Positions 1 through 4,078 of a stretch of 5,872 nt of DNA are shown here, piece after piece. The stretch is from Nitrospira sp. Lineage in GTDB: Bacteria > Nitrospirota > Nitrospiria > Nitrospirales > Nitrospiraceae. The stretch spans positions 24,790 to 30,661 of the forward strand of contig JABMDH010000019.1 of NCBI GenBank assembly GCA_015904075.1. The letters run 5' to 3'. The translations under genes were made by a program, and so were the position numbers. The notes under the pieces were generated by a model, which did no database searches, was not told where the DNA came from, and saw only the letters and a list, made by a program, of their open reading frames with translations. The stretch's first letter is position 1. Every line of letters starts with the position of its first letter.

Positions 1-293
1 GGGATCTCTTCCGGCGCATGCTGGCCGTCGGCATCTAGCGTCATGACGCCGACTGCGCCATGAGTCAACGCATGATCAAATCCGCGCATAAGGCTGCCGG
101 CCTTTCCGCGGTTCTCATCGTTGCGTAAGACCGTCACATCCAGGCCGGCCAATGCCTGCACCGTCCCATCGACAGACCCGTCGTCCACGACGATCACATG
201 TGGACAGTGCCGGCGCGCGCGTGCAGCCACATCGCGTACAGTCGCCGCCTCGTTATAGGATGGAATCACCACCCAATACGCCTCACGTTTCAC
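1..293 (-). CDS. Family 2 glycosyltransferase, N-terminal part (3' end outside window)
   Basis: This is the first 97 codons of a GT-A fold, family 2 glycosyltransferase, which transfers a sugar from a nucleotide donor, often to a lipid. The sequence shows the N-terminal nucleotide-binding strand with IPSYNEA (residues 10-16), the VVDDGSVDGT block (35-44) whose Asp pair contacts the nucleotide, the NRGKAG loop (61-66) and the metal-binding LDADGQH motif (86-92). This arrangement is typical of the dolichyl/polyprenyl-phosphate glycosyltransferase group. The start is GTG at 293-291: an in-frame TGA lies two codons upstream and a good Shine-Dalgarno is correctly spaced. It follows the reductase gene after 43 bp, and GT2 enzymes are common in aryl polyene clusters, where they are thought to act on the lipid or head group. 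The acceptor cannot be read from this fragment. The family call is firm; the role in the pathway is inference. Confidence 0.9.
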   Translation of the reverse strand, partial: MKREAYWVVIPSYNEAATVRDVAARARRHCPHVIVVDDGSVDGTVQALAGLDVTVLRNDENRGKAGSLMRGFDHALTHGAVGVMTLDADGQHAPEEI

Positions 294-336
294 ATGTCAC
301 CTTCCACGTCCCCTTACGCCTTACGCCACACGTTTC
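277..336 (-). repeat. Short degenerate repeats in the spacer and start of the glycosyltransferase
   Basis: Read on the minus strand, GAAACGTGTGGCGTA (336-322) recurs as GAAACGTGAGGCGTA (291-277), 14 of 15 bases identical. Between them GGCGTAA is followed at once by another GGCGTAA (the forward strand shows TTACGCC twice, 314-327). The first unit begins at the base right after the reductase stop codon; the second contains part of the start codon and the first codons of the glycosyltransferase. It looks like a decayed tandem array of a short intergenic unit. I see no hairpin strong enough to call a terminator. Confidence 0.5.
297..305 (-). promoter_or_regulatory. Ribosome binding site of the glycosyltransferase
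   Basis: On the minus strand this reads GGAAGGTGA, with core GGAAGG at 305-300 ending six bases before the GTG start at 293. It is one of two clear Shine-Dalgarno sequences in the window and decides the GTG start. This gene is the only one not overlapping its upstream neighbour, so it needs its own ribosome entry. Confidence 0.6.
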
Positions 337-1062
337 CTACGCCATGCCTCCATTCACCCCGATGACCTGTCCGGTAATATATCCCGCTTGCTCTGACAGG
401 AGAAACGAGACCAGCGCCGCCACTTCTTCCGGAGTGCCGGCACGCTTCATCGGCACCATCGCTTCAACCTGCTCCGGTTTGAACGCATTCCTGGTGGAGG
501 GTGATTCGATCAGGCCGGGCGCCACCACATTGACCGTGATGCCCCGTGACGCCAATTCGATCGCCAGCGACTTGCTTGCCCCATGCAGGCCGGCTTTGGC
601 CGCGGCATAGTTCGTCTGGCCGCGATTGCCGATTACGCCGGCTAACGATGAGATGGAAACGATCCGCCCCCAGCGCGTGCCGATCATCGGCAGCAACAGC
701 GGCTGCGTGACATTGAAAAACCCGTTGAGCGAAAGATCAATGACCCTGCTCCACTGTTCGCCGGTCATCCCGGCCATCGGCGCATCCTCGTGCAGGCCAG
801 CGTTGTTGACCACAATTTGAATCGGCCCGTCCTTCAACAGCGATTCGAGCGATCGGCCGGTCGCATCCGCGTCGGTGATGTCGAAGGACGCACTCGACGC
901 AGTCCCGCCATGAGCCTTGATCTTCTCGGCCATCCGTTGAGCCGACTCGACATGCCGGTACGCATGCAGAATCACAGCATGTCCGTCGGCGGCCAACCGT
1001 TCGGCAATCGCGGAGCCGATGACACCGCTCCCTCCTGTGACCAGCGCGCGTCTCTGCGTCAT
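337..1062 (-). CDS. fabG: 3-oxoacyl-ACP reductase, FabG/ApeQ-like short-chain dehydrogenase
   Basis: This complete 241-aa classical short-chain dehydrogenase/reductase is predicted to reduce the 3-ketoacyl-ACP made by the ketosynthase to 3-hydroxyacyl-ACP with NAD(P)H in the cytoplasm. Visible motifs: Rossmann glycine motif TGGSGVIG (residues 9-16), NNAG (86-89) and the catalytic tetrad Asn113, Ser139 (in VSISS), Tyr152 and Lys156 (YAAAK). The C-terminal GxxxGVNGGMA ending is typical of the FabG group, and the length is normal. The glycine motif has GVIG where housekeeping FabG usually has RGIG. Its ATG overlaps the dehydratase stop codon as ATGA (4 bp) and there is no strong Shine-Dalgarno, so it is probably translated by termination-reinitiation. 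Position next to the dehydratase and KS supports the ApeQ role in polyene synthesis rather than general fatty acid synthesis; that assignment is inference. Confidence 0.93.
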   Translation of the reverse strand: MTQRRALVTGGSGVIGSAIAERLAADGHAVILHAYRHVESAQRMAEKIKAHGGTASSASFDITDADATGRSLESLLKDGPIQIVVNNAGLHEDAPMAGMTGEQWSRVIDLSLNGFFNVTQPLLLPMIGTRWGRIVSISSLAGVIGNRGQTNYAAAKAGLHGASKSLAIELASRGITVNVVAPGLIESPSTRNAFKPEQVEAMVPMKRAGTPEEVAALVSFLLSEQAGYITGQVIGVNGGMA

Positions 1063-1502
1063 ACCGGCGCCCGTTTCAAAAAAATGGAGGCCCGCCCGCT
1101 TATCACCTCGCGGCCTCCGGATGAAATAGCGAATCGGTACAGAAAACTGTCGTCTCCCATGAACAGACGTGTCGCCTCGATCGTCAGTTCATCCGGACAG
1201 TCATCGAGCCGGTCGATGCCGAACACCACATCACGCACACCTCCGACATAGCCGATCGACCCGTTCGACGATCTCCCTCCATTGAGCAACCCCACATGGA
1301 CTCCCATCGCTTGAGCGGCATATTCGATCCCCGCGACGGCATCCAGGCACGCGCCCCGGCGAAGCGGATTTGCCGGATCCTGATGGGTCTTTGTATGGCA
1401 GCGAATCGACGACTCGTCCCACGATGCCGCCCGGTCGAGCAGCCGCATGGCCCCTGCATGGGGAAGAAAGGCGGCCAGGTCGTCTTTGGTCAAATGCGGC
1501 AT
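1059..1502 (-). CDS. ApeP-like 3-hydroxyacyl-ACP dehydratase (hotdog fold)
   Basis: This complete 147-aa protein resembles the ApeP-type dehydratases of aryl polyene clusters, small hotdog-fold proteins distantly related to FabZ/FabA that remove water from 3-hydroxyacyl-ACP to give the trans-2-enoyl unit. Features that can be seen: LPHAGAMRLLD near the N-terminus (residues 13-23), the NPLRRG segment (45-50), the long central helix GIEYAAQAMGVH (58-69) characteristic of the group, and a C-terminal GRASIFLK strand. His15, Glu60 and His69 are conserved-looking polar residues that may line the active site; I cannot assign the catalytic pair from sequence alone. The start ATG lies inside the end of the ApeC-like gene (13-bp overlap) and the stop overlaps the reductase start by 4 bp, which suggests coupled expression. 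In APE systems ApeP works with a second hotdog protein, ApeI; no ApeI is visible here. Confidence 0.85.
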   Translation of the reverse strand: MPHLTKDDLAAFLPHAGAMRLLDRAASWDESSIRCHTKTHQDPANPLRRGACLDAVAGIEYAAQAMGVHVGLLNGGRSSNGSIGYVGGVRDVVFGIDRLDDCPDELTIEATRLFMGDDSFLYRFAISSGGREVISGRASIFLKRAPV

Positions 1503-2290
1503 GGCTCAAGATCCACAATGAGCTGCTGGCTATCCGACAAGCTGAACCCGACGGTTCGCCCGCCGCCGGCAGCGGCAGCGCTCAGTAGAAGCAGCGAGTG
1601 GGCAGCGGGATTACCTTGCCGAACCAGTTCTAATTCGGGATCTTCAAGACCGGCTATTTCGCCTGTATGCGCTGTTTCGAGATGCACCCGCATGACAGGA
1701 GAGGAGCCGTCCGAGGGAGGTGTCAGCACAAGCGCCACGGCAAATCCCTCTGTAATGGGACGAGCCTGGCTGAGCGGCTCCGGCACGACCAGATCGTAGG
1801 CCACCAACAACACCGGCCGTTGCTCCACACATACCACTGTCGCTGCTTCCAACAAACCGGCTGCAAATGAATCGTCGTAGCAAGACAGCGCCGTCGAGGA
1901 CTGTTGCCCGGCCGTCGCAATGCCCCAATAGCCGGCGGCTGTGTTATGTACCGATTGATGAAACAGCGTCGGGGAAATCATCCGATCCGGCAAACAGAGG
2001 GCACGACAGAGTTTGTCGAACACACCCATTTCACCACCCGAGGAAGCAAACACCGTCGGCACCTCGCGAGGGTCCAGGCCCGATCGGCCGATGGCTTCTT
2101 GCGCAACCTGCATGGCCCACCGGACGCAGTCGCTGCTCCGCCGCCGTTCATTCGGAGGCAGCAGTTCCGCTTCCGGATCAGGCACGACTCCCGGTTGATA
2201 GGGACGAGTCCCGGCGAGCACCGCTCGACCGGCATCCCAACCGGCAAGGCCCGAAGCCAGGAGTCCGATACCGCCGATCGCTACCTTCAT
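1490..2290 (-). CDS. ApeC-like ketosynthase-fold partner (chain length factor)
   Basis: This complete 266-aa protein belongs to the short beta-ketoacyl-synthase-like family (Ketoacyl-synt_2) that includes ApeC, the chain-length-factor-like partner of the ApeO ketosynthase. Recognisable blocks are an N-terminal IGGIGLLASG strand (residues 5-14), LPPNERRRSS (44-53), FASSGGEMGVFDKLC (81-95) and the family signature SPTLFHQSVHNTAAGYW (106-122). It is only about two thirds of a normal KS, has no TACSSS nucleophile elbow and no HGTxTxxND or GHTxGAAG blocks, so it should not condense by itself. By analogy with ApeO-ApeC it would pair with the KS encoded just upstream and help shape the chain tunnel. 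Its ATG overlaps the stop of the downstream KS fragment as ATGA (4 bp), so in an intact operon the KS and its partner would be translated in step. The family call is strong; pairing is inference. Confidence 0.88.
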   Translation of the reverse strand: MKVAIGGIGLLASGLAGWDAGRAVLAGTRPYQPGVVPDPEAELLPPNERRRSSDCVRWAMQVAQEAIGRSGLDPREVPTVFASSGGEMGVFDKLCRALCLPDRMISPTLFHQSVHNTAAGYWGIATAGQQSSTALSCYDDSFAAGLLEAATVVCVEQRPVLLVAYDLVVPEPLSQARPITEGFAVALVLTPPSDGSSPVMRVHLETAHTGEIAGLEDPELELVRQGNPAAHSLLLLSAAAAGGGRTVGFSLSDSQQLIVDLEPCRI

Positions 2291-2892
2291 GGCAATTTCC
2301 CAAAAACCAAGCTGCAGTTATTTCCCCCGAATCCGAAGATGTTACTGACCGCGTACGACATCGCGCCGATCTGATTCTCGCGAAGAATCCGGCTTTTCAA
2401 GGAAGGGTCTATACGCCGGCAATTGAGCGTCCCGGGCATCAACCCCTGGGCAAGACAGAGGGTAGAAATGACCGCTTCCGTGATACCGGCAGCGCCCAAC
2501 GTATGCCCGGTCCAGCCTTTGGTTGAGCTACAGGCAGGCCGAGCCCCGAACACACTATAGACGGCCTTGTCCTCGACCGAATCATTCGCCCTCGTCGCCG
2601 TTCCGTGCAGATTGATATATTCAATGTCCTCAGCACGAAGCGAGGCCCGGGCCAAGGAGTCTCGAATCGCGCGAACCGCCCCCGCCCCTTCGGGATGCGG
2701 ATGCGACATATGATAGCCATCCGTGCTCTCACCATAGCCGAGGAGGGCAATGGTTCCGCGCCCGCCCACTCGTTCGCAGGACTCCAACAATGCGTAACCG
2801 GCTGCCTCACCCAACGACAGCCCGTCGCGATCCTCGTCGCAGGGTCTGCACGGATCCGTTGACAACAGTTGCAGCGCAGAAAATCCATACAA
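2287..2892 (-). pseudogene. C-terminal ketosynthase fragment, second copy, without catalytic Cys
   Basis: This open frame encodes the C-terminal half of a beta-ketoacyl-ACP synthase from YGFSALQLL to the natural end FGFGGNNCSLVFGKLP. It has the NLHGTATRANDS and KGWTGHTLGAAG blocks with the two catalytic histidines and the conserved lysine, and a complete FGFGGN terminal strand. It lacks the N-terminal half and the TACSSS cysteine, so it cannot condense acyl chains alone. The only start in frame near its beginning is the TTG at 2892, an internal Leu codon in the intact gene, with no convincing ribosome binding site. It is about 95% identical at protein level to the matching part of the upstream KS, and the frame is free of stops and indels. 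Its stop overlaps the ApeC-like start as ATGA, so this copy carries the true 3' end of the KS gene. It is probably not an independent gene. Confidence 0.8.
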
Positions 2893-2897
2893 CGTCG
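2324..2897 (-). repeat. 574-bp direct repeat, copy B (downstream half of KS gene)
   Basis: This segment aligns base for base with 2898-3471 at a constant offset of 574. I count about 48 mismatches and no gaps (roughly 92% identity). It covers KS codons from the ACGACGTTG stretch before YGFSAL to the G-run of FGFGG. Its left flank holds the true KS 3' end. The match stops at the unit boundary on both sides: base 2323 differs from 2897 and base 2898 differs from 3472, so there is no extra microhomology. Confidence 0.92.
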
Positions 2898-4078
2898 CCC
2901 CCGAATCCGAAGATGTTACTGACCGCGTACGACATCGAGCCGATCTGATTCTCGCGAAGAATCCGGCTTTTCAACGAGGGGTCCACGCGCCGGCAATTGA
3001 GCGTCCCGGGCATCAGCCCCTGGGCAAGACAGAGGGTGGAAATAACCGCTTCCGTGATACCGGCAGCACCCAACGTATGCCCGGTCCAACCTTTGGTTGA
3101 GCTGCATGCAGGGCGAGCCCCGAAAATACTATAGACCACCTTGTCCTCGACTGAATCGTTCGCCTTCGTCGCCGTCCCGTGCAAATTGATATACTCAATG
3201 TCCTCAGCGCGAAGCGAGGCCCGGACCAAGGAGTCTCGAATCGCGCGAACCGCCCCCGCCCCTTCGGGGTGCGGATGCGACATATGATAGCCATCCGTGC
3301 TCTCACCATAGCCGAGGAGGGCGATGGTTCCTCGTCCGCCCACTCGTTCGCCGAACTCCAGTAACGCATAGCCGGCCGCCTCACCCAACGACAATCCATC
3401 CCGATCTTCGTCGCAGGGCCTGCACGAATCCGCCGACAACAGTTGCAGCGCGGAAAATCCATACAACGTCGTGAGACAGAGACTGTCCACCCCGCCGACC
3501 ACGGCGGCATCGCACAGGCCGGCTTGCATCAACCGGGCGGCGGTCGCGAAGACTTTTGCGCTCGAAGAGCAGGCGGTCGAAATCACCATGGCCGGCCCCT
3601 GCAATCCAAGACAGGTCCTCACGAAATGCCCCAGAGAAAACATGTTATGCGTATATCGATACCGCGGACCGTACCAGGCCGGCAGCCTATCGGTATGCAG
3701 GTCGCGCTCGCGGTAGGCATGTTCGGTTTCGAGAATTCCGGACGTGCTGGTGCCCATCACGACCGCGATTCGATGTGCGCCGTATCGCTGCTTCGCCTCC
3801 GCCGCCGCCACCATGAAACCGTCCTGCTGAAGGCCAAGCCAAGCCAGCCGGTTGTTACGGCAGTCGAAGGGCCGCAGTTCGTCATCGAGAGAAAAATCCT
3901 CAAGGCCGTCTACTCGCCCGATTGATGTCTTCAGCGCCACATCTTCAAAGTCGCAGGGCTTCAAGCCTGATCGGCGTTTGCGGAGCGCCTCCAGGACAGG
4001 CCTGACTCCTCTGCCGTTCGCCGTCACGAGGGTATAGGCAGATAAGGCCAGCGGGGGCATCGGTTTGAGATCAGGCAC
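2807..4078 (-). CDS. Beta-ketoacyl-ACP synthase (ApeO/FabF-like) with disrupted C-terminus
   Basis: This 423-codon frame encodes an almost complete thiolase-fold ketosynthase that would condense malonyl-ACP with the growing polyene chain. Seen: the nucleophile elbow STACSSS with Cys170, the NLHGTATKANDS block with His300, Lys329, GHTLGAAG with His334, and the C-terminal SNIFGFGG (387-394). GTG at 4078 is chosen as start because of a strong Shine-Dalgarno six bases upstream and an 8-bp overlap with the exporter stop; the ATG at codon 7 is the alternative. After FGFGG the frame runs into the second repeat copy shifted by one base, so the last 29 residues (DVVWIF...RRAVVG) are not KS sequence. 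The conserved Asn of the GFGGxN loop and the final strand are lost, which likely damages the fold. Deleting one 574-bp repeat unit would give a normal 405-aa KS ending NNCSLVFGKLP. As written the gene is probably defective. Confidence 0.85.
   Translation of the reverse strand: MPDLKPMPPLALSAYTLVTANGRGVRPVLEALRKRRSGLKPCDFEDVALKTSIGRVDGLEDFSLDDELRPFDCRNNRLAWLGLQQDGFMVAAAEAKQRYGAHRIAVVMGTSTSGILETEHAYRERDLHTDRLPAWYGPRYRYTHNMFSLGHFVRTCLGLQGPAMVISTACSSSAKVFATAARLMQAGLCDAAVVGGVDSLCLTTLYGFSALQLLSADSCRPCDEDRDGLSLGEAAGYALLEFGERVGGRGTIALLGYGESTDGYHMSHPHPEGAGAVRAIRDSLVRASLRAEDIEYINLHGTATKANDSVEDKVVYSIFGARPACSSTKGWTGHTLGAAGITEAVISTLCLAQGLMPGTLNCRRVDPSLKSRILRENQIGSMSYAVSNIFGFGGDVVWIFCAATVVNGSVQTLRRGSRRAVVG
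2898..3471 (-). repeat. 574-bp direct repeat, copy A (upstream half of KS gene)
   Basis: This is the partner of 2324-2897, abutting it with no spacer. On its right it continues into the N-terminal half of the KS with the catalytic cysteine. The unit is 191 codons plus one base, so the duplication shifts the reading frame at the junction, inside a run of five G residues on the minus strand (2902-2898). Most mismatches with copy B are silent, and the reading frame is open throughout in both copies. Confidence 0.92.

Follow-up and report, generated by a model that had tools for sequence, protein, structure and literature searches.

Kelley and Salzberg (2010) describe 'duplicated overlapping contigs', in which the facing ends of two contigs represent one region from two haplotypes and the opposite ends are unique. 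Placed side by side, such haplotype contigs mimic a segmental duplication (PMC2864568). Tandem duplications also arise in living bacteria. In Streptococcus pneumoniae, merodiploids formed by transformation carry tandem duplications that go back to DNA uptake; the one described for a single clone is large (107.4 kb) and arose between incomplete IS861 copies (PMC3784515).

The window, i.e. the whole stretch of DNA analysed here (5,872 nucleotides), is a Nitrospira-type ketosynthase locus. In reading order, Pfam identified an MMPL-family protein, a ketosynthase (PF00109, PF02801) and a second ketosynthase-like protein (PF13723). The next protein, of 147 aa, matched no family, and the last two were assigned as a FabG-type reductase and a family 2 glycosyltransferase. 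We take this gene order to resemble that of aryl-polyene loci. The 147-aa protein (window 1059-1502) gave no Pfam match at E 1e-3 and a tblastn match in 28/28 related loci; it presumably occupies the position of a hot-dog dehydratase. The nearest genome loci, L001-L003, are from MAGs titled Nitrospira sp. or Nitrospiraceae, with a ketosynthase identity of 94% and a DNA identity of 92-94% over both flanks. Rfam at gathering scores yielded no match in the window, the plasmid collection nothing relevant (one irrelevant 125-bp match) and an IMG/VR scan with a 23-base pattern from the window no match.

Inside the ketosynthase gene of the window two 574-bp units, A and B, lie head to tail. This tandem repeat is very probably an assembly artefact, in which contig ends from different strains were joined, and not new biology. 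The layout is that of the duplicated overlapping contigs, namely divergent copies with unique outer flanks. The published class was described in diploid vertebrates, between separate contigs and at >95% identity, whereas the window is bacterial, has no gap at the join and shows 91.6% identity, below the 95% that served as the search threshold of that paper (PMC2864568). The window probably works like this class outside its identity range, and the strain mixture of a metagenome would create the same condition as two haplotypes. The pneumococcal merodiploids share with the window the bacterial tandem duplication; unlike theirs, the units of the window have no flanking repeat (PMC3784515).

Geometry of the repeat and reading frames

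The features of the ketosynthase region are listed below with the evidence for each.

2287..2323, minus strand: ketosynthase 3' end (last 11 codons and stop), single; open reading frames, comparison with relatives
2287..2892, minus strand: open stretch of unit A together with the 3' end, TTG start, 201 aa; open reading frames
2290..2814, minus strand: listed protein P0121 (TTG start, 175 aa), equal after its start residue to part of the open stretch of unit A; protein search
2324..2897, minus strand: unit A, ketosynthase codons about 203-394 with a partial codon at each end; 48 differences to unit B, dN/dS, PF02801
2807..4078, minus strand: 423-aa open reading frame, through unit B and then out of frame into unit A; open reading frames
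2897..2898, no strand: junction of the units without spacer, N or microhomology, proposed false join; sequence, comparison of the units
2898..3471, minus strand: unit B, the same ketosynthase codons (about 203-394), joined to the right (5') flank; comparison of the units, dN/dS, PF02801
3472..4078, minus strand: ketosynthase 5' part, 607 nt, single; open reading frames, comparison with relatives

Direct comparison of unit A (2324-2897) with unit B (2898-3471) revealed 574 nt in each, a spacer of 0 and 0 gaps. The earlier note had reported these units without spacer or indels and with about 48 substitutions, no microhomology at the boundaries and a natural ATGA overlap with the next gene. All of this was confirmed: there are exactly 48 mismatches (39 transitions and 9 transversions), 0 consecutive identical bases follow beyond the outer edge on either side when the bases past both edges are compared, and the 4-bp ATGA overlap of the ketosynthase 3' end with the next gene is located at 2287-2290. 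A match of 574 bp at 91.6% is far beyond chance. A direct-repeat search of the window returned the same pair at a spacing of 574 bp and, at a minimum length of 30, listed only one other pair (30 nt, 70%). Each copy joins a unique flank on its outer side only, unit A on the left (3') and unit B on the right (5'). In alignments to L001-L003 the left block correspondingly reaches window position 2897 and the right block begins at 2898, and the two blocks overlap by 574 bp in the relative. The initial 40 bases of the two units are identical. This was considered as a sign of a k = 41 graph and set aside, since inner identical runs of 43 and 53 bases exist too.

On the minus strand the gene is read from the 5' part (4078-3472) through unit B and unit A to the 3' end (2323-2287), and both units share one codon phase. 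The arrangement breaks the ketosynthase frame because 574 equals 1 modulo 3 and is not a multiple of three. The 423-aa open reading frame consists of 393 whole native codons up to the junction and a further 30 residues. These start with the native glycine; the remaining 29 are out of frame. The closest relative protein, P0001, comprises 405 aa, and this length and the shared codon phase agree with the intact 405-aa ketosynthase that the earlier note obtained by collapsing one unit.

Selection on the two copies

Between units A and B 37 synonymous and 11 nonsynonymous differences were found, corresponding to a dN/dS of 0.083, which falls inside the range among L001-L003 pairs (0.032-0.106). Polarised with L001-L003, 24 changes were placed on the unit A branch (19 synonymous, 5 nonsynonymous) and 10 on the unit B branch (6 synonymous, 4 nonsynonymous), with 14 unresolved. 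Random mutation of unit A is expected to be nonsynonymous or to create a stop in 68% of cases, so that five or fewer out of 24 has a P of 2.8e-6 under neutrality. With a constrained rate of 13/86, taken from the non-independent L001-L003 pairs, the assumption that half of the unit A changes arose without constraint is disfavoured (P = 0.03) and a share of two fifths is not (P = 0.08). Thus, constraint acted on unit A while no less than about half of its changes accumulated. The unit B branch by itself is weak, with 4/10 changes nonsynonymous and neutrality not rejected (P = 0.07).

Unit A would be the detached C-terminal fragment, and it contains no stop and no indel; the decay expected of the detached copy in an old in-place duplication was not observed. 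The differences between the units are instead of the kind seen between alleles or strains under selection, clearly on the unit A branch and weakly on that of unit B. The A-B distance of 8.4% (A to L001-L003, 8.9-11.0%; B to L001-L003, 7.0-7.5%) looks like that between separate lineages of the group. Apparently, the units diverged elsewhere and not at their present site. Low dN/dS and the 19:5 ratio on the unit A branch indicate that each unit behaves like part of a ketosynthase that is intact and under selection in a lineage of its own. Most simply, the pieces diverged first and were joined later, either inside a cell or by software. Unit A could also be under selection as a useful translated fragment in place.

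Joining in a cell would correspond to a recent, real merodiploid. Here, a cell would have taken up DNA from a second strain and integrated it homologously at one place and illegitimately at the other. The result would be a partial duplication with divergent copies and a ketosynthase with a shifted frame. Natural transformation is a described source of bacterial tandem duplications (PMC3784515), and such an event would account for copies that are divergent yet undecayed. It is nevertheless unlikely: nothing lies between the units, there is no microhomology, a gene that is single in 28/28 related loci would be broken, and the descendants of one cell in which this happened very recently would need to dominate the assembled population. 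Homology-facilitated illegitimate recombination is a known process. In this merodiploid reading, improbable as it is, recombination between strains of a Nitrospira-type bacterium would have linked two divergent ketosynthase alleles end to end at a joint that lacks homology. The enzyme would have exchanged its last 12 residues for a tail of 30, starting with the unchanged glycine, and a C-terminal fragment that is still open would lie next to it.

In a tree of A, B and L001-L024 (24 of the 28 related loci) A and B were sisters (UFBoot 94). An AU test with 9 sequences rejected none of the three placements (p 0.87, 0.19 and 0.11); bp-RELL alone excluded the third. The tree was left out of the decision because the AU test keeps all three A/B placements. 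A grouping of A with B would also be expected from a lineage-specific duplication.

Copy number at related loci and origin of the join

The search for related loci returned 30, of which L029 and L030 were left out as distant. The 28 loci used are titled Nitrospira sp. (24) or Nitrospiraceae, Nitrospirota or Nitrospirae (4). All 28 contain a single ketosynthase with the second ketosynthase-like gene directly after it, and a tandem ketosynthase at the locus was found in 0/28. Between the last base of codon 393 and the start of the next gene lie 36 bp in 26/28 loci and 42 bp in the other two (L017, L018). The corresponding distance in the window is 610, which equals 36 + 574; less one unit, the window has the same distance as the 26 relatives. 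A search of the genus with unit B matched 26/79 genomes, 23 over nearly the whole unit and 3 partially. Scoring the best candidates per genome (at most 7), 25 of these had one match and only G002 had a second among the matches listed, which is 67% identical and located on another contig. No contig with only unit A or only unit B was detected among the related loci, in the genus search or in the protein set clustered at 90%.

The earlier note had offered as one option that two full-length tandem ketosynthase paralogs existed and that a deletion cost the first its 3' end and the second its 5' half. Both copies could then have diverged under selection, and the sister grouping of A and B allows it. 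This option found no support, as no tandem ketosynthase occurs in any of the 28 related loci, G002 with its distant second match on another contig stands alone among the matching genomes, and removal of one unit restores the usual next-gene distance. We therefore regard it as very unlikely.

Repeats within related loci were searched by self-BLAST of 57 loci, several of which represent the same place (E up to 1e-20, length at least 150 nt). Repeats were listed in L012, L029 and L020 (with L052, which represents the same place as L020); no other abutting repeat inside the ketosynthase body was found in the 57 loci. In L012 (9950-10745) two adjoining related stretches with 67% DNA identity and a 113-bp spacer lie beyond the glycosyltransferase; on the minus strand of this locus they appear to encode two small proteins that resemble each other. 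In L019 (about 5855-5980, one extra copy) and L020 (207-563, two extra copies; the same place as L052) the ketosynthase 5' end is repeated in tandem as degenerate, partial copies in the stretch that separates the ketosynthase from the MMPL gene. Their period is about 126-128 bp, they run into stops and their best identity is 68/90 bases. The same stretch of L021 (a close relative), L006, L026 and L027 holds no such copies (6/28 loci checked). Provided that these MAG sequences are correct, the ketosynthase locus does undergo partial duplication, in a form unlike that of the window. Like the repeat of the window, the copies are partial and tandem and concern the same gene and locus in Nitrospira MAGs; they differ in lying upstream of the ketosynthase gene, in their short period and in their stops.

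These copies bear on an old in-place partial tandem duplication, 8% of which has since changed while the second unit drifted or was kept as a fragment. Besides the L019 and L020 copies, the 201-aa unit-A stretch with its TTG start, which remains open, speaks for it. However, unit A should have decayed, and it shows 19 synonymous to 5 nonsynonymous changes (P = 2.8e-6) without stop or indel; the L019 and L020 copies are short, at most 68/90 identical and interrupted by stops. Such an origin is extremely unlikely. The expectation stated earlier, that a duplication with 8% change should be homogenised, deleted or decayed, holds in part: homogenisation is not necessary, and the absence of decay is the stronger argument.

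The other option of the earlier note, two strains' contig ends placed end to end, which the note slightly favoured, gained support from the single ketosynthase in 28/28 loci, from purifying selection and from the published layout. Two co-occurring Nitrospira-type lineages would have contributed a contig X (window 1-2897) and a contig Y (2898-5872), both reaching into one ketosynthase gene and sharing an overlap of 574 bp. Unit A would be the right-hand end of contig X from strain 1 and unit B the left-hand end of contig Y from strain 2. At about 8% divergence the assembler may have left the overlap unmerged; the contigs would then have been linked, presumably by read pairs or graph neighbourhood, and written end to end. 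Each lineage would hold one intact ketosynthase. We infer the two source strains and the joining step.

The artefact is favoured because the units abut exactly, without indel or microhomology, because the ketosynthase is single in 28/28 loci and 610 equals 36 + 574, because purifying selection spans the A-B divergence including the would-be detached copy, and because the layout is like the published haplotype-misassembly class. The join, with no microhomology and nothing between the units, shows no sign of a biological mechanism. Several observations point the other way. The window contains no N letters and hence none at the junction 2897/2898; many scaffolders leave a run of N at joins. From its TTG start the unit-A stretch is still open for 201 aa, contigs with only one of the units were absent from the loci, genomes and clustered proteins searched, L019 and L020 contain genuine partial ketosynthase duplications, A and B group as sisters (UFBoot 94) and the unit B branch alone is compatible with neutrality (P = 0.07). 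Moreover, Kelley and Salzberg state for their search at >95% identity, compared with 91.6% here, that duplications within a contig are seldom misassembled single-copy sequence (PMC2864568).

An unmarked join of this kind simulates a gene duplication, yields a ketosynthase that is falsely truncated and turns the sequence into a chimera of strains. If the artefact is true, the 175-aa P0121 already stands in the searched protein set as such a falsely truncated ketosynthase. The combination of selection on the copy that should decay with the locus length in relatives is a test that needs no reads, and it could flag similar joins in metagenomes.

Divergence along the window

Divergence from L001-L003 is higher in the ketosynthase zone (2287-4078) than in the flanks, with 8.7-10.6% vs 6.0-6.9% on the X side and 9.1-10.0% vs 5.1-7.0% on the Y side (six Fisher tests without correction, p from 0.025 down to 9e-7). 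Among themselves, L001-L003 showed no difference between zone and flank in the X part (p 0.46 to 1.0); in the Y part the zone was more divergent than the flank in one pair (p 0.015) and less divergent in another (p 0.04), with no difference in the third (p 0.71). The excess fits an assembly that breaks where strains differ most, which is only suggestive; possibly, the ketosynthase gene of this lineage is a recombined allele. The flanks X and Y were also considered as proof of two strains and dismissed, both being about equally far from L001-L003.

Within the glycosyltransferase-FabG gap (window 281-336) the alignments break: the window has 56 bp, L001 256 bp and L003 280 bp. The break is narrower in comparison with L002, where 10 bp of the window (326-335) correspond to 92 bp.
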